From contig NZ_REGA01000020.1 of NCBI RefSeq assembly GCF_003841505.1, positions 1 through 64,000 of the forward strand: a DNA stretch of 64,000 nucleotides, given 5' to 3'. A program made the translations under genes and the position numbers. How positions within the stretch are numbered: the first letter of the stretch is position 1; every line of letters begins with the position of its first letter. This DNA comes from Natrarchaeobius chitinivorans. GTDB taxonomy: Archaea > Halobacteriota > Halobacteria > Halobacteriales > Natrialbaceae. Positions 32,252-39,407 of this stretch are shown here, piece by piece. A model generated the notes under the pieces. It saw nothing but the letters and a program-made list of their open reading frames with translations. It was not told where the DNA came from and did not search any database.

Positions 32252-33325
32252 ATGAGCTTCGTCATCGGTCGCGGTTCCGACGCCGAACCGATACAGGCGG
32301 GTCACCTCGGACGGTATCGTGCGCTCGACGGGAGTGAAGGGGCGAAGCTGTACGTCGACCTCGACGGGCCACACGCCATGTTGATCGTCGGGAAACGCGG
32401 CTACGGGAAGTCGTTCACGCTGGGCGTCGTCGCCGAGGAACTGGCGCGTGCGCCGGGTGTCGCGCCCGTAATCGTCGATCCGATGGGCGGCTTCTCGACG
32501 ATCGCCGAACCAGCCGACGGCGAGGCGGTTCCCGTCGACGTCGTCGATCGACCGGCGGTCGCAGCCGACGTCCTCGACCCCCGCTCGTGGTGTTCGCTGC
32601 TCGGCCTCTCGCCCGAAAGCGGGGCAGGCGGACTCGTCTGGCAGGCCGCCCAGGAGGCCGAGACGCTCGAGGCGATGTGCGAGCGGGTCGAGGAGACCGA
32701 CGCGCCGATGACCGACAGGCGCGCGGCGACCAACCACCTGGCGCTCGCGGAGTCGTGGGGTGTGTTCGATCCGGCGGGCCTCGATGCGTCCGACCTCGCC
32801 AGCACGGCGATCACCGTCGTCGACGTCTCCGGACTGGACGCCGCGCCGATGAACGCCGTCTGTCGCGCCATCGCGGAGGCGCTCTACCGAGCCCGGGTCG
32901 ACGAGACGATCGATCGACTCCCGTGGCTCATGATCGACGAGGCCCACACCTTCTTCGACGGCATCGCCGACGCGGCGTTACACACGATCCTCACCCGCGG
33001 ACGTGCGCCGGGAGTCAGCCTCGTCCTCGCGACCCAGCGCCCGAGCGCCGTCACGGACACCGCCATCTCCCAGTCCGACGTGTTGATCTCTCACCGACTG
33101 ACCGCCGAAGCCGACCTCGAGGCGCTGGCTGCCGCCCAGCCGACGTACATGGACGAGTCGCTCGACGAACGACTGCCGACGGAACCCGGCCAGGTCGTCG
33201 TCGTCGACGACGCGACCGAGACGATCCACGCGGCACAGATACGACACCGGGACACCCCACACGGCGGCGCCAGTCCGAGCGCGCGTGAGGTCGTCGGTAT
33301 CGAAACGCGGGCGGCCGACGACTGA
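32252..33325 (+). CDS. HerA-like/DUF87 ATPase
   Basis: 357 residues. A short OB- or barrel-like N terminus (SFVIGRGSDAEPIQAGHLGR), Walker A in VGKRGYGKSFTLGVV, Walker B in LPWLMIDEAHTFF, and the sensor part LVLATQRPSAVTD. These are the marks of hexameric DNA-translocating or membrane-associated HerA-type ATPases. It is about half the size of HerA. No NurA gene is next to it. The last codon TGA is also the left flank of copy B. Confidence 0.85.
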   Translation: MSFVIGRGSDAEPIQAGHLGRYRALDGSEGAKLYVDLDGPHAMLIVGKRGYGKSFTLGVVAEELARAPGVAPVIVDPMGGFSTIAEPADGEAVPVDVVDRPAVAADVLDPRSWCSLLGLSPESGAGGLVWQAAQEAETLEAMCERVEETDAPMTDRRAATNHLALAESWGVFDPAGLDASDLASTAITVVDVSGLDAAPMNAVCRAIAEALYRARVDETIDRLPWLMIDEAHTFFDGIADAALHTILTRGRAPGVSLVLATQRPSAVTDTAISQSDVLISHRLTAEADLEALAAAQPTYMDESLDERLPTEPGQVVVVDDATETIHAAQIRHRDTPHGGASPSAREVVGIETRAADD

Positions 33326-33406
33326 TACTGTCGGCTGTAACTGTGTCGCAACTCTCGCCACACCGGAGCGGCGAGAACCTTGAATGACTTACAGCCGACA
33401 GTATGA
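33323..33406. mobile_element. 78-bp palindromic MITE-like element, copy B
   Basis: TACTGTCGGCTGTAA and its perfect inverse enclose the element 33326-33403; an inner CTCGCC / GGCGAG hairpin is in the middle. Both sides carry TGA (33323-33325 and 33404-33406), a 3-bp duplication, and the first is the stop codon of the HerA-like gene. It is strongly similar to copy C. Confidence 0.8.
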
Positions 33407-33420
33407 CGTAGCTGCTGTCG

Positions 33421-33589: not shown

Positions 33590-34198
33590 ATGACCGACAT
33601 CGACCGACTCGAGCAGCGCCTGGCGGCGGTCGAACGGGTCGTCGTCGACGGCGACATCGAACTCGACGAACTGGCTGCAGTGACCGCGCTTGCCGAAACG
33701 GTCTCGGAACTCGAGGAACGCGTCGATGCCCACGAACGACGCCTCGCCGACCTCGAGGGAACCGTCCAGTCGATCGAGGGCTACGTCGGCAACGTGGAGT
33801 CGATCACCGACGACGTCGAACGCCAGTCGGCCGCAGCCGTCGCGACGGTCGACCGACTCGAGCGGCGCATCGACGCGCTCGAGGGCGAACTCGACGATAT
33901 CGCGGTCGACACTCTCGAGGCCGACGGGGAACGCGACGACGAGAGCGAGACTGACGCCGCGGACGGGTCGACCGACGCAGACGGTGGGACCTTCCGGTTC
34001 GACGGGTCCGTCAGCGAGACGACTCGACCAGAACCGGAACAGTCGGTCGCGGAGGTACTCGACGAGGATTCGAAACCGTTCGTCGACGACATCGACCGAC
34101 CGACGTCGTCTGCGAACCAGTCGATCGTCGACGAGGCGGTCGAGTCGGGAGACGACGACGGCGGATTGTTCGGCTCCATTCGATCACGACTCGGGTGA
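33590..34198 (+). CDS. DUF7310-like coiled-coil protein
   Basis: 202 residues. Heptad-rich N-terminal half (LEQRLAAVERVVVDGDIELDE; ETVSELEERVDAHERRLADLEG; DRLERRIDALEGELDD), then an acidic linker and a short C-terminal stretch GGLFGSIRSRLG. It has no signal peptide. It is known in haloarchaea as a conserved coiled-coil family, with unknown role, possibly in cell envelope or secretion machinery. It has its own promoter. Confidence 0.7.
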   Translation: MTDIDRLEQRLAAVERVVVDGDIELDELAAVTALAETVSELEERVDAHERRLADLEGTVQSIEGYVGNVESITDDVERQSAAAVATVDRLERRIDALEGELDDIAVDTLEADGERDDESETDAADGSTDADGGTFRFDGSVSETTRPEPEQSVAEVLDEDSKPFVDDIDRPTSSANQSIVDEAVESGDDDGGLFGSIRSRLG

Positions 34199-34462
34199 TT
34201 CGCGACGTATTCACAGCCCTGCTGACGGCCGTGATACTGAGGATGCTGGAGTGGCCCCCAAGGAAGTGTCGTCTGACACCACCGACCAACCGTCGTCCGA
34301 CACCACCGACCGAGCGTTACGGACGTCGATTTCTGACATCGGCGCAGCGCAGCCTCACTCGAGGACGACGAATAGTGGTAAGTAGTCACCGTAATTTGTC
34401 AGATAGTGGTAGTTTCGATCATAACGTCAGAACTATGTGGGAGCGTATACCGTCGCTACGGA

Positions 34463-35065
34463 ATGAAAGCGGATGCCACCGAAGAGATAGTAGAAGACGA
34501 GCTCCGAATGACCGAGAAATCGGTCGCGAATCTCGACAGTATCTGTGATACCACTCTCGTCGGTATCACGTTCCTGTTTGCGGGAATCGCGACCTGGGGA
34601 GCGTTCGGATTCGGAGAGGTCTCTTCCGGAAGTATCAGTACTACCCAGGCCTGGCCGTTTCTCGGCTTCATCGTGCTTTCGGGAGTTGCGACGACTGTCG
34701 CAGTGAGCTACATCATCCGTGGGCTCTTTCCACGGCAGTTCTACACCGAAGAAGTCGGCGAAACGATACTTCACTCGACGTGGCTACCGGGTATCGGCAG
34801 TGGGACCTCGCAGTCGGCGATACTGGACCGTGCTCGGTCGACGACGGCCGAGGCGTACGTAAGCGAGTTCATCGAGAGCTACGACCCGGAAGACGAGATT
34901 GAAACCCACGAGAAGTTCTCGAAGGTCAAACTCCGCAACCTCAAGGCGATCGCCGGGATAAAAGCGAAACTGACCGGGAAGGGGCTCCTGTGGTTTCAGC
35001 TGGGGGTGCTGTTCTTCCTCGCCTCCTTGCTGTACGGTGGCGTTCTCGTCGTGCTGAGTGGCTGA
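34463..35065 (+). CDS. small membrane protein of unknown function
   Basis: 200 residues from ATG 34463 (MKADATEEIVED); the longer reading from 34406 adds residues with no membrane character. Three hydrophobic segments: TTLVGITFLFAGIATWGAF, WPFLGFIVLSGVATTVAVSY and LLWFQLGVLFFLASLLYGG. A soluble loop between the second and third contains many charged residues. Its stop faces the phosphoesterase stop, with 34 bases between. No family name can be given, but its place beside a cyclase operon raises the chance of a membrane effector. Confidence 0.55.
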   Translation: MKADATEEIVEDELRMTEKSVANLDSICDTTLVGITFLFAGIATWGAFGFGEVSSGSISTTQAWPFLGFIVLSGVATTVAVSYIIRGLFPRQFYTEEVGETILHSTWLPGIGSGTSQSAILDRARSTTAEAYVSEFIESYDPEDEIETHEKFSKVKLRNLKAIAGIKAKLTGKGLLWFQLGVLFFLASLLYGGVLVVLSG

Positions 35066-35099: not shown

Positions 35100-35870
35100 T
35101 TACTGGGGCAGGCGATAGATGCGTTCGAAGCCAGTGCTCTCGACGAGCCGAACGCGAGATCCGTCCTCGAGGTCGACGACGCCGAACGCCCCGTGGGGTT
35201 TCTCGGAGAGTTCTTTGTTGAACGAGTCGACGGTAAAGTGATCCGTCCCACCGTCTCTGGTGTGATCGGACCAGTGGAGGTGCCCGTTTACGACGAACGC
35301 GGGTTCGATGGCTTTCAGGATCTCGTTTATCGCCACCCTGTCGGTACAAAACGCCTGTTCGGGACGGTCGTGGAACCAGCGGTTCTCGTCGAGTCGCCGG
35401 AAGCCAAGCGGGTGATGGACGAACACGATCGGGTTCGACAGCGCATCCGCTTGCGACTCGAGTGCGTCGCGTTGCTCGCTGCCAATCTCGCCGCCGAATC
35501 CGGTACAGCCAGCTCCCGTCGAGTCGAGAAAGACGATGCGTTCCTCGATAGACCACAGTTCGTGTCCGAAGGCGTCTTCGAGCGTCGACCGGTCGAGGAC
35601 GGCGACGTCGTGATTTCCCGGGACGTACCTGACAGGTGTTTCGCCGCCTTCCAGCGTGTCGATCACCGCCTCTAATAGCTCGAGCGTCGTTTCTTCGGAC
35701 TGCCCGCCGTGGACGAGATCACCGAGTGCGACGATCAGATCGGGCTGTACCTCGCGTTCGATCTCCGTGCGAAGCACGGATAGGGCTTCGGCGAGTTCGC
35801 CGATAGAGTCCGGTTTGGCGTGAATATCCGTGACGACTGCGATTCGTGACGGACGGTCGGTCCCTGTCAT
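35100..35870 (-). CDS. calcineurin-like metallophosphoesterase
   Basis: 256 residues. Motifs in the usual order: TDIHAKPD, VALGDLVHGG, PGNHDVAVL, VHHPLGF and NGHLHWSDH, together the dimetal site of the calcineurin-like family. It overlaps the GNAT gene by four bases (ATGA). The family includes cyclic nucleotide phosphodiesterases, which makes a role in degrading a product of the neighbouring cyclase domain attractive. Substrate is not shown by sequence. Confidence 0.9.
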   Translation of the reverse strand: MTGTDRPSRIAVVTDIHAKPDSIGELAEALSVLRTEIEREVQPDLIVALGDLVHGGQSEETTLELLEAVIDTLEGGETPVRYVPGNHDVAVLDRSTLEDAFGHELWSIEERIVFLDSTGAGCTGFGGEIGSEQRDALESQADALSNPIVFVHHPLGFRRLDENRWFHDRPEQAFCTDRVAINEILKAIEPAFVVNGHLHWSDHTRDGGTDHFTVDSFNKELSEKPHGAFGVVDLEDGSRVRLVESTGFERIYRLPQ

Positions 35871-36427
35871 TCGAACTCGGAGCGGGACACAGCGTAGTAC
35901 ACCGTATCGACTCCGTCACCCCTGTCGTCGGGAATCGTCTCGACTTCCTGGAATCCCAGTTCCGCGAGCAGCGATAGATGGCTCTCGTTACTGCTCCACG
36001 TTCGCGTCGAGACGTACGGCGAGGTAATCTCTTCTGGGAGATCAGACAGAATCGTCCCGTACATCCGTCGGGCGAGGCCCTCACGGCGGAACTCCGGGTC
36101 GACTGCGATCGTCGAAACGTAGTTCGAAGGCTGGAAAGAGCCGAGTTCGGGCGTCTCGTAGCCATCCCGGAACGACATGAATCCGGCAAGCTCACCGTCG
36201 TCGTGACACAGGATGAGATGCTGCTCGAGACACGCCTCGTGATACGTTTCGATGGCCTCCGAAACCTCCGCATTCGTCTCGCGCTCGGCGTCTGAAAGTC
36301 CCGAACGCTGGGTCGTCCCCTCGCGGGCCGACAGGGGAGGAACGAACTCGTCGTCGACGACGACGAGCAGTCGTTTGATCGCCTCACTGTACCGGTCCGG
36401 GTCGGAAACGTATTCGACGGTAGTCAT
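35867..36427 (-). CDS. GNAT-family N-acetyltransferase
   Basis: 186 residues. VSTIAVDPEFRREGLARRMYG contains the motif A R/Q-x-x-G-x-A/G (RREGLA) for acetyl-CoA binding, and LAELGFQEVETI is motif B. It overlaps genes on both sides by four bases, in an operon with a cyclase-methyltransferase fusion and a phosphoesterase. The acceptor is unknown; modification of a protein or metabolite within this pathway is possible. Confidence 0.85.
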   Translation of the reverse strand: MTTVEYVSDPDRYSEAIKRLLVVVDDEFVPPLSAREGTTQRSGLSDAERETNAEVSEAIETYHEACLEQHLILCHDDGELAGFMSFRDGYETPELGSFQPSNYVSTIAVDPEFRREGLARRMYGTILSDLPEEITSPYVSTRTWSSNESHLSLLAELGFQEVETIPDDRGDGVDTVYYAVSRSEFE

Positions 36428-37950
36428 CGTTCGGAACGTGTCGCGAACGCGTAAATTCGCGTCGTGTCGATGTCGTCGTACTCTCGTGCGAACTCCCTGT
36501 ACTGCTCGGTGAAGGCGTACTTCTCGGCTTCGTTGGAGAGACGTTGCTTGTACGAAAGCAGCGTCGCCTCGGCGAAGTCGTCGACGAGCGTGTCCGGCTG
36601 TTCGGATTCCATCACGTCGATTTTGAGCACGTCGAAGTCGTTTCGCTCGAGCACCTCGGCCATTTCGTCTTTTTCGTAATAGACGAGCGGAAACTGGAAG
36701 TCTCGGAAGTACTCTTCGAACCCGAGTTTCTCGTAGGCCCGTCGAGCGGCTTCGTGAAGTTCTTTGTAACAGCCCTTGGCACCCTGGTGTACCGCGAGAA
36801 TGCCACCTGGATTCATCGCCGACCGGATGTTCTGATAGGCGTCGTCCTGTCGCTGTACCCAGTGCATCGTCGAGTTACTCATCACGATGTCGAACGACCG
36901 CTCGGCGTCCCAGTCCGAAATATCGGCAACCTCGTAATCGACTTTCGGATGGGTGTGATCCTGGCGCGCTTTGCGGATCTGGTCCGCTGACTCGTCGATG
37001 CCCACGATTCGCGCTTCCGGGAACAGGTCGGGTAGCGTCTTCGTGAGCGCACCCGAACCACACCCGATGTCAAGGACCTGTGCCGGCACCAGGTCTCGAC
37101 GGTCGACGTACTGCTCCAGCCGCCAGAACAGGAAGTCCGCCTGTGTCCGCTGTGTCGTCGAATTCTCGTCGTACCGGTCTGCGTTCTGAAACAGGCTGTC
37201 GGCGCTATCGAGCTGATCGAAACACTCGCTTGCGAAGTGATGGAGCAGGACTCGATCCGCCTTGCGGTCGATCTGGGAGTACGACGAGACGAAAAATTCC
37301 AGCGCGCGCGAATACTCGCCTTCCTTGTACCGTTTCGCAGCGGCGTTGAACTGGTCGATGTACTCTTCGTCGTAGTCGTCGAGCGAACAGATTTCGAAAA
37401 CGTCGATGCGCTCGTAGATACCTTCGATACGTTGGTCGGGAATGAGTCGGAACCGATACCCCTCCGGCAGCTGCTCGATGTTCTCCCGGGTTCCCTCGTC
37501 AGTGAGAACGGACACATCGAACTTCTTACAGAGGCTCTGTAATCGAGACGAGATGTTGACGTTTCTGCTGATGATCGTCTCGTCGATGTCGGCGATCGTC
37601 GCCCGGTGGAGTTCGCCCGTCGACAGTCCGATACCGATTTCGAGATTGAGTTTCGTCCGTCGCTCGAGTTCCGGTAGCCGCCGGTACAGCATCTCGCTGG
37701 CCGCGCGGACGGCGTTGGCTTCACAGTCCTGCCGGCGATCGTCTCGAAACACCGCCAGCATGCCGTCGCCGACCAGTTTGTCGACCGCCCCGCCGTACGA
37801 ATCGACGGTCCGCTGAAAGTCGACGAACAGTTCGTCCAGTACCGATTCGATCCGGCTCGGCCCATAGAATTCGAGGAGATTCGTGAAGTTCCGTAAATCG
37901 ACGAAGAGAACGCATCCCCAGTCTGTACGAGTCGTAGCTGTCTCGCTCAT
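36424..37950 (-). CDS. class III nucleotidyl cyclase fused to SAM methyltransferase
   Basis: 508 residues. Residues 10-145 form a class III cyclase domain: metal-binding Asp18 in VLFVDLRNF and Asp62 in DKLVGDGML, base-specifying Lys58 and Thr125, and Asn132/Arg136 in NVNISSRL. Residues 190-250 are helical, perhaps TPR-like (AAAKRYKEGEYSRALEFF). The C-terminal part is a class I methyltransferase (VLDIGCGSGAL at 292-302, VMSNSTMHWV, NPGGILAVHQG). This fusion would make a cyclic nucleotide and methylate an unknown acceptor. First gene of the three-gene operon. Confidence 0.85.
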   Translation of the reverse strand: MSETATTRTDWGCVLFVDLRNFTNLLEFYGPSRIESVLDELFVDFQRTVDSYGGAVDKLVGDGMLAVFRDDRRQDCEANAVRAASEMLYRRLPELERRTKLNLEIGIGLSTGELHRATIADIDETIISRNVNISSRLQSLCKKFDVSVLTDEGTRENIEQLPEGYRFRLIPDQRIEGIYERIDVFEICSLDDYDEEYIDQFNAAAKRYKEGEYSRALEFFVSSYSQIDRKADRVLLHHFASECFDQLDSADSLFQNADRYDENSTTQRTQADFLFWRLEQYVDRRDLVPAQVLDIGCGSGALTKTLPDLFPEARIVGIDESADQIRKARQDHTHPKVDYEVADISDWDAERSFDIVMSNSTMHWVQRQDDAYQNIRSAMNPGGILAVHQGAKGCYKELHEAARRAYEKLGFEEYFRDFQFPLVYYEKDEMAEVLERNDFDVLKIDVMESEQPDTLVDDFAEATLLSYKQRLSNEAEKYAFTEQYREFAREYDDIDTTRIYAFATRSER

Positions 37951-38032
37951 TCAACGCTAGCAGTTCTTTCGAAGGGGGATAAATAAACCTAGGTCGCTCC
38001 GTCAGGACATCATCTCACGTCGTTCGCGTTGC

Positions 38033-38116
38033 TCATACTACCGGCTGTAACTGTACCAGGCCTCTCACCACACCGCAGCGGTGACAATCTCAAATGGTTC
38101 ACATTCGGTCGTATCA
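38033..38116. mobile_element. 78-bp palindromic MITE-like element, copy C
   Basis: TACTACCGGCTGTAA at the left and an imperfect inverse at the right; a CTCACC / GGTGAC inner hairpin sits in the same position as in copy B. The alignment to B over all 78 bases is ungapped, with differences scattered. TCA flanks it on each side (38033-38035 and 38114-38116). It lies between the cyclase operon and the HTH/PIN pair. Confidence 0.75.
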
Positions 38117-38227
38117 CGACGTCCGACTTCGCGGCGGCCATAGGACTGCTCGAGATCACTGCTTCCGGGCTCGAGGGTGCCGACTGAGCACGGCCCCTCT
38201 CCCACGGGGACACCCTCACCAAGCATT

Positions 38228-38258: not shown

Positions 38259-38774
38259 ATGGCGACGAGAGAAGCGGAGTGGAAAACGCCGCTCGACACC
38301 GGCGGGGACGTGTTCGAACTCCTCGGAAACGCCCGAAAAGCGTGGATCTACACGTACCTCCGGCACAATCCGGACGCGACGATCGAGGACGTCGTCGAGA
38401 CGCTCGAGATTCCACAACGAACGGCCTACGAGTACGTTGACGACCTCGAATCCGCGGGGTTCATCGAGCAGTCGAACGAGGGGCGACCGGCGCTGTACAC
38501 TGCCGGAGAGATCGATCTTCACCTGGTACAGGGCGACGTCGAACGGGAGATCACGCCGGCGTTGATCGAAGCGGTCGCCCGCCGACTGCGAGACGACGAC
38601 GTCGATACCTACATCGACCACCACGGATTGGACGGACTCGCCGTTGCCCTCGAGTACGCTCGCGAATACGTCGACGGGACGGTTACGCATCGGATTATGG
38701 CCCGCGAGCAAGCGATCAGTTCCCTGGAAGCGGGCATCGTTTTGGATGCACTCCGTCCGGTCGTCGAGGGCTGA
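38259..38774 (+). CDS. helix-turn-helix antitoxin-like regulator
   Basis: 171 residues from ATG 38259 (MATREAEWKTPLDTGG). Residues 15-80 form a winged helix (VFELLGNARKAWIYTYLRHN, DVVETLEIPQRTAYEYVDDL); the remainder is a helical partner-binding region (LEYAREYVDGTVTHRIMA). The PIN gene starts 6 bases downstream, so it should act as antitoxin and autoregulator. Typical for haloarchaeal HTH-PIN modules. Confidence 0.75.
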   Translation: MATREAEWKTPLDTGGDVFELLGNARKAWIYTYLRHNPDATIEDVVETLEIPQRTAYEYVDDLESAGFIEQSNEGRPALYTAGEIDLHLVQGDVEREITPALIEAVARRLRDDDVDTYIDHHGLDGLAVALEYAREYVDGTVTHRIMAREQAISSLEAGIVLDALRPVVEG

Positions 38775-38780
38775 TCGAAG

Positions 38781-39407
38781 ATGGGCGACGATGACGAAGC
38801 CGTGTTCGTCGACTCCTCTATCCTCATCAGCTGTGGCCGGCGCGAGAGCACGCGGTTTCGGGCGTTGGGCCGGGAAGCCGATCGACGCGGTACGATCTTC
38901 CGGATACCGCCACAGGTCTATGCCGAAATGGGAGGTGAGACGTTGCTCGAGGGGTACGCGACGACCGATTCTGCTGTAGACGAGGCGCTACGTGACGGGT
39001 GGATGTCGGTCACCGAAAGCCCGTCGTATTCGGAACCGGACGTCTCATACGGTCTGCTATGAGTCTTTACCGGTCGATCGCAGAACGGTGGGCGATCGAC
39101 CGGCAATCAGTCATAGCAAACCGTATCACGGGTCATGGACCAGGCTCGGCGTTCCATCGCGACAGCCAGCGACCGATCCGAGGATGTCGTCGAAAAGACG
39201 GATACCGAAGTCGTCGACCTGGCACTCGAAACGCTCCTCGACAGCGCTGTTGACCGGGTGATCGTTGTCACGAACGACATCCCGCTCGGTGAAGCAACGG
39301 AGACGTTGATTCCACGGCACGGGTTCGACGACGAGCAGATATCGTGGCTGACCGGTGGCGAACTCGCTGACGAACTCGCGACCGACTTCGTTCCCGAATT
39401 CGATTGA
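38781..39407 (+). pseudogene. PIN-domain toxin gene split by MITE copy D
   Basis: The N-terminal half (VFVDSSILISCG with the first Asp; YAEMGGETLLEGY) runs to 39047 and ends in a stop inside the element. The C-terminal half is in the same frame (VMDQARRSIATASDR; VDRVIVVTNDIPLGEATE). Removing the element with one TCA gives one uninterrupted frame of 181 residues, ...EPDVS then RVMDQ..., which has the size of a complete PIN protein. So the toxin is broken by a recent insertion, while the antitoxin-like HTH gene remains. Confidence 0.85.
39045..39128. mobile_element. 78-bp palindromic MITE-like element, copy D (in PIN gene)
   Basis: TACGGTCTGCTATGA and TCATAGCAAACCGTA are inverted (one mismatch), with an inner CCGGTCGATCGC / GCGATCGACCGG stem. 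TCA occurs on both sides (39045-39047 and 39126-39128). Its insertion interrupts the PIN frame. The inner stem resembles that of copy A and of copy E, though with a different sequence. Confidence 0.85.

Follow-up and report, generated by a model that had tools for sequence, protein, structure and literature searches.

Whether a run of four genes in a haloarchaeon constitutes a self-contained system for making and degrading a nucleotide signal, and which of the genes form its core, is the question raised by the stretch of DNA analyzed here. The window, as we call the whole stretch, comprises 64,000 nt (positions 1-64,000 of contig NZ_REGA01000020.1, assembly GCF_003841505.1, Natrarchaeobius chitinivorans). 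The genes in question are the following:

36424..37950, minus strand: cyclase–methyltransferase fusion of 508 aa, with a class III nucleotide cyclase (aa ~8-190), a TPR-like helical linker (~195-285) and a class I SAM methyltransferase (~289-505)
35867..36427, minus strand: GNAT N-acetyltransferase of 186 aa, the start of which overlaps the fusion stop (ATGA)
35100..35870, minus strand: calcineurin-like metallophosphoesterase of 256 aa, with the motifs D-x-H, GD, GNHD, HH and GHLH intact
34463..35065, plus strand: three-TM membrane protein; a GTG start can be annotated at 34406, whereas conservation begins at the ATG at 34463

The coordinates (37950-36424, 36427-35867 and 35870-35100) bear out the claim of an earlier note that fusion, GNAT and phosphoesterase are joined by two 4-bp overlaps, both ATGA, into one minus-strand operon, with which the TM gene is convergent; 34 bp separate its stop from that of the phosphoesterase. 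The domain assignments of that note were confirmed by Pfam matches to Guanylate_cyc (E=1.6e-10, residues 8-147) and Methyltransf_25 (3.3e-20, 291-382) on the fusion, to Acetyltransf_1 (4.1e-9) on the GNAT and to Metallophos (2e-17) on the phosphoesterase. The catalytic residues of the cyclase, comprising the metal-binding Asp, Lys/Thr and Asn/Arg residues that had been pointed out before (D18, K58, D62, T125, N132 and R136), are all present and invariant in ten homologues. Structure prediction of the fusion, which had been proposed as a check, gave a model with a pLDDT of 79.7 overall and mostly >85 within the cyclase domain, in which both expected folds were found: the cyclase matched CyaB (3r5g; TM-score 0.82 to the target) and also OaPAC from Oscillatoria, and the methyltransferase matched 3ccf (0.73). 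K58 and T125 both align with CyaB residues, and a Lys/Thr base-recognition pair is typical of the adenylyl cyclases of bacteria, which are class III enzymes. From its sequence, the cyclase looks catalytically intact and bears an adenylyl-cyclase-type signature; judged by the Lys/Thr pair, ATP is the best guess for its substrate and cAMP the most likely product.

In a tree of 109 rows, which was returned with long-branch warnings, the ten fusions grouped together within the bacterial cyclases (100/100), and the haloarchaeal PycC proteins formed a separate clade, also 100/100, on a long branch. Among the bacterial and viral loci retrieved, 91 further ORFs encode class III cyclases, none of them with a methyltransferase fusion. 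Scanning GTDB contigs with the single fusion sequence gave no match, and the alignment-based scan recovered three full-length fusions, all haloarchaeal, the remaining matches being cyclase-only. A set of closely related class III cyclases, mostly ORFs of ~594-597 aa, was noticed on 'viral' contigs of IMG/VR (L147-L159) and rejected as relatives of the fusion, as they belong to an unrelated clade and have no methyltransferase.

Among 391 Halobacteria genomes, 17 contained matches to PF00211, of which the fusion cyclase is the sole one in the genome of the window, and nine genomes, from six genera and five families, were matched by a profile built from full-length fusions. Besides the window's genome, the carriers are G150 (two copies), G196, Actinarchaeum halophilum (G261/L067), the Halomicroarcula-type genomes G371 (Halomicroarcula sp. 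SYNS111/L068) and G344, and three Halobellus genomes, G372 (H. limi, on plasmid NZ_CP031312), G385 (H. rarus) and G285. The search for the same gene order that had been suggested for other haloarchaea showed that fusion, GNAT and phosphoesterase follow each other in five further genomes, three of Halobellus and two of the Halomicroarcula type, whose loci may share one recent ancestor; copy 1 of G150 has fusion and GNAT in this order. The objection that the earlier note had raised against itself, namely that the three genes might never occur together elsewhere, therefore falls away. Nevertheless, GNAT and phosphoesterase are accessory: the former is present in seven and the latter in eight of the nine fusion genomes, and Actinarchaeum halophilum, where the phosphoesterase profile gave no good match and the GNAT search none at its threshold, has neither. 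Its minimal locus (L053), seen in this one relative, consists of the fusion and the convergent TM gene only, which speaks for a core made up of cyclase and membrane protein.

A profile built from the window's three-TM protein and linked homologues gave the same result when searched in the same 391 genomes: it matched exactly the nine fusion genomes (9/9 with the fusion versus 0/382 without). The chance of identical sets under independence is ~2e-18 by genome and 2e-9 by genus, figures that both overstate the strength of the association because the genomes are related. The two genes lie within ~3 kb of each other, often convergently, in six genomes, and ~50 kb apart on the same replicon in Halobellus, where both genes are present in three of 17 genomes and absent from the other 14; given this distance on a shared replicon, joint plasmid inheritance could explain their co-occurrence in this genus. 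Pairwise identities of fusion and TM protein were correlated across six dereplicated lineages (r=0.89, with 8/720 permutations as good), and the correlation fell to 0.24 when the copy of G150 adjoining the TM gene was replaced by the TM-less copy 1. The convergent three-helix protein, noted before as a neighbor, is indeed at that position (34406/34463-35065, plus strand), but it is more than a neighbor: it belongs to the system, and no other gene accompanies the fusion as faithfully. Its three hydrophobic segments are arranged as two TM helices, a loop and a further TM helix; a Foldseek search of its model against solved structures returned no significant match, and scans of viral contigs for this protein and for PycTM gave none either.

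The methyltransferase domain (METHYLTRANSFERASE) has the SAM motif I LDIGCGSG and is nearest to BioC, Tam and PDB 3ccf, although its scores of 99.1 and 76.7 bits are below the respective equivalog cut-offs of 184.95 and 320 bits. Two relatives from two genera, G196 and copy 2 of G150, have a further domain at the N-terminus with matches to TFIIB (Pfam PF00382, E=6e-9 and 2e-13; NCBIfam TFB, E=1e-18), and both are convergent with a TM–phosphoesterase pair:

L055:10283-12523, plus strand: in-frame TFIIB-like (cyclin-fold)–cyclase–methyltransferase fusion
L061:5512-7779, minus strand: in-frame fusion of the same composition

In both of these variants the methyltransferase motif SNS/AxMHW is changed to LNSPLYS, and in G196 motif I is lost as well (GCEEG in L061), yet all six cyclase residues are kept. 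Since the cyclase residues persist where the methyltransferase motifs decay, it is apparently cyclase activity that has been conserved as the function, and methylation seems dispensable.

The phosphoesterase homologues have invariant metal-motif residues (D15, H17, D51, N86, H87, H152, H197 and H199), and the nearest named families, SpdA, CpdA and GpdQ, were matched with only 22-35 bits compared with curated cut-offs of 225 and 400. The prediction that its fold is one shared with cyclic-nucleotide phosphodiesterases thereby proved right at the level of fold type. The gene contexts of phosphoesterase paralogues elsewhere in the genome were uninformative. In the L051 locus (G371:C1:2699352-2700081) the phosphoesterase is split over two frames, whereas the near-identical copy in G344 is intact, so either a frameshift or an assembly error may be involved.

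The setting of the module points to mobility. In Halobellus limi the module is plasmid-borne, and in the window its genes have a GC content of 0.57-0.61, whereas the window as a whole has 0.62 and the neighboring HerA gene 0.70. Relatives have HerA-like and DUF7310 genes followed by a DUF7311-like gene and a putative secretion or pilus operon (names assigned by reading); in the window, a remnant of the DUF7311-like gene at 34195-34250 marks the place where this HerA/DUF7310/DUF7311/pilus-type operon is cut, just before the TM gene. On the right, the module is followed by a nos cluster, the NosZ of which is 92% and 90% identical to those of G088 and G095, and for which the one congener sampled contained no full-length match. 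Searches with the fusion and TM profiles did not detect the module in three congeners. This pattern is consistent with horizontal acquisition.

Several further observations concern the surroundings. Short palindromic, MITE-like elements of ~80-90 bp were found at 33322-33408, 38032-38118 and 39047-39126 of the window; two of them form a 71% direct repeat around the module, and by its position the third appears to interrupt a small ORF pair (38781-39062 / 39135-39407) that is PIN-domain-like by reading. Upstream of these ORFs is a TrmB-type winged-helix gene with DUF7437 (38259-38774), and together they look like a broken toxin–antitoxin pair adjoining the module. In different relatives, genes for GrpE/Hsp70 with vWA or tubulin-like genes are found near the TM or fusion gene (L055:32-3725, L169:2229-5761, L170:8218-10725) and may represent conflict-system neighbors. 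In one Halobellus locus (L060:807-6020), a phage-tail-like Tail_P2_I gene and a large neighbor, possibly a contractile injection system, are located directly upstream of the fusion.

With moderate confidence we read the locus as a horizontally moving cyclic-nucleotide signaling module of haloarchaea, with the cyclase fusion and the three-TM protein as its core, a logic similar to that of Pycsar, and a role in defense or stress. In the mechanism that we envisage, the cyclase domain would homodimerize, and sensing of a cue by the linker or the C-terminal domain would trigger synthesis of a 3',5'-cyclic nucleotide, most likely cAMP. This would switch the membrane protein, the cytoplasmic part of which is predicted to be the loop between TM2 and TM3, and the phosphoesterase may hydrolyze the signal to reset or protect the cell. 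A small molecule of the amino acid or carboxylate type, serving as the cue or arising from the response, might be the substrate of the GNAT and, where intact, of the methyltransferase. A membrane response in defense or stress, perhaps an antiviral one, would be the likeliest role, although the flanks in several relatives contain metabolic genes (amino-acid racemase, aminopeptidases) instead of known defense genes.

These metabolic flanks lead to the strongest alternative, a possible but less probable one, in which the module mediates cAMP signaling in response to nutrients or amino acids (lysine- or diaminopimelate-like compounds, D-amino acids or peptides), which it would sense or modify. The membrane protein would then be no suicide effector but a target of transporter-like or regulatory type. 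Among the GNATs, the seven of the module cluster tightly (318-350 bits), and the next group (78-166 bits), with ~38% identity to the module GNAT, is found in nine genomes without the module, in or beside diaminopimelate/lysine clusters in L213, L214, L215, L216 and L218. These are clusters of the dapA/B/D/E/F-lysA kind; in L213, L215 and L216, NCBIfam equivalogs bore out the identity of dapB, dapD, dapE, dapF and lysA. Because its nearest relatives reside in such clusters, the substrate of the module GNAT is probably an amino acid and not a nucleotide. The earlier view of the locus as a module for making, altering and degrading a nucleotide has therefore to be divided: co-occurrence, intact cyclase residues and the type of the phosphoesterase speak for it, whereas alteration of a nucleotide is unlikely for the GNAT and no more than possible for the methyltransferase, which is of the BioC/trans-aconitate type and resembles carboxyl methyltransferases. 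The amino-acid alternative is serious because racemase and peptidase genes adjoin the TM or fusion gene in several relatives: an Asp/Glu-type racemase and a P1-type peptidase in L051, L052 and L169 (both labels by reading, the latter with no NCBIfam match), a DppA-type D-aminopeptidase in L055 and an M28-like peptidase in L053. On the other hand, these peptidases do not belong to one family, the surroundings of the window's module contain none of them, two genomes keep fusion and TM protein without GNAT, and a sporadic distribution on plasmids and at junctions would be unusual for nutrient regulation.

A bolder version of the defense reading, which we regard as rather unlikely, is that of a new immunity-type system of archaea, in which a cyclic nucleotide made by the fusion, possibly methylated, gates a new family of three-TM effectors and, in the variant form, the TFIIB-like domain ties the cyclase to the transcription machinery of archaea, as a means, for instance, of sensing when a virus hijacks it.

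It is improbable that the module is a true Pycsar system, with a cyclase producing cUMP or cCMP and a divergent PycTM as membrane protein, even though component logic and TM layout are the same. PADLOC assigned PycC to the fusion with 45 bits and, weakly, PycTM to the TM protein (E=0.019). We rejected the PycC matches as evidence for Pycsar, since these models are non-specific and score ordinary bacterial cyclases higher, at 74-101 bits, so that the matches carry no weight. Two relatives of the TM protein had no PycTM match in PADLOC, and hhalign of the TM family against PycTM gave a weak result (probability 13%, P=0.002); homology of the two is no more than possible. Further arguments against this explanation come from the tree, in which, long branches notwithstanding, the fusions are outside the PycC lineage, and from the nucleotide-selecting residues. 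UTP is selected by K104 and F109 in AnPycC and CTP by R142 and Q144 in EaPycC (PMC11224242); the fusion has V60/L65 and K58/V60 at the respective positions, and at the offsets compared (F16, K58, V60 and L65) no pyrimidine-selecting residues of either type were found.

An inverted logic similar to that of Panoptes, in which a constitutively made nucleotide holds the membrane protein in the off state and its loss, for example through viral phosphodiesterases, is the trigger, would be quite improbable. Effectors guarded by cyclic nucleotides have been described (PMC12657218), and in the module, too, a synthase and a small TM protein are combined; yet its own phosphoesterase would make such a system self-triggering, and the enzyme family of Panoptes is a different one. 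Least probable is a small-molecule modification cluster without signaling, in which the cyclase domain is nucleotide-binding or regulatory: methyltransferase and GNAT are modification enzymes, but none of the class III catalytic residues varies, whereas two members have decayed methyltransferase motifs, and the strict partner is a membrane protein.

The signaling module that we favor had been expected to be new for an archaeon, which holds for the module but not for the cyclase alone, because other haloarchaea also have class III cyclases as well as ordinary Pycsar pairs. Such PycC–PycTM pairs (PycC ~250 aa, PycTM ~160 aa) are present in L054, L063 and L066 and likely in L056, L064 and L065. 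Neither the libraries searched nor the open-access literature yielded a description of the module, and a literature search for a cyclase–methyltransferase conflict system gave no paper. The ways in which 3',5'-cAMP is produced and used in archaea are an open question: few predicted archaeal adenylyl cyclases belong to class III, the class IV candidate tested in Sulfolobus is a phosphohydrolase, and a cyclase class not yet known has been proposed (PMC8646023). At this locus, a class III cyclase of a haloarchaeon, its residues intact, comes with a defined membrane partner and a candidate off-switch, and the hosts are related to the tractable Haloferax. Should the pair work in the way proposed, cyclic-nucleotide signaling would gain a new family of outputs and, as new partners in fusions, a methyltransferase and a TFIIB-like domain; the four-gene set could be tested at once.

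Compared with known enzymes, the cyclase is closest in fold and sequence to class III adenylyl cyclases of the CyaB/OaPAC type (3r5g, 5x4t), with which it shares the Lys/Thr pair, but it is fused to a methyltransferase, an arrangement absent from the 91 further ORFs compared. That domain in turn has BioC and trans-aconitate methyltransferase (Tam) as best family and fold, including SAM motif I, and differs from them by scores under the equivalog cut-offs and by its fusion to a cyclase. The GNAT has the motifs EFVPPL and DTVY in common with the enzymes of haloarchaeal diaminopimelate/lysine clusters, which are not linked to any cyclase. For the phosphoesterase, CpdA and SpdA, which are class III cyclic-nucleotide phosphodiesterases, and GpdQ are the best named families and share the metallophosphoesterase motifs, although the scores are far under the curated cut-offs for CpdA and SpdA. 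At the level of systems, PADLOC found no CD-NTase, the enzyme looked for as a sign of CBASS, among the four module proteins, and the likeness to Panoptes is the pairing of a synthase with a small TM protein, the synthase there being of a different enzyme family. The module resembles Pycsar in combining a cyclase of class III fold with a small protein of two TM helices, loop and one TM helix, and in its sporadic distribution; we do not file it there because two membership features that were tested are absent. In contrast to Pycsar, its cyclase belongs to a separate clade, has adenylyl-cyclase-type residues and is fused to a methyltransferase, its TM protein is at most marginally similar to PycTM and is encoded convergently or at a distance rather than downstream, and a GNAT and a phosphoesterase are added to the pair.
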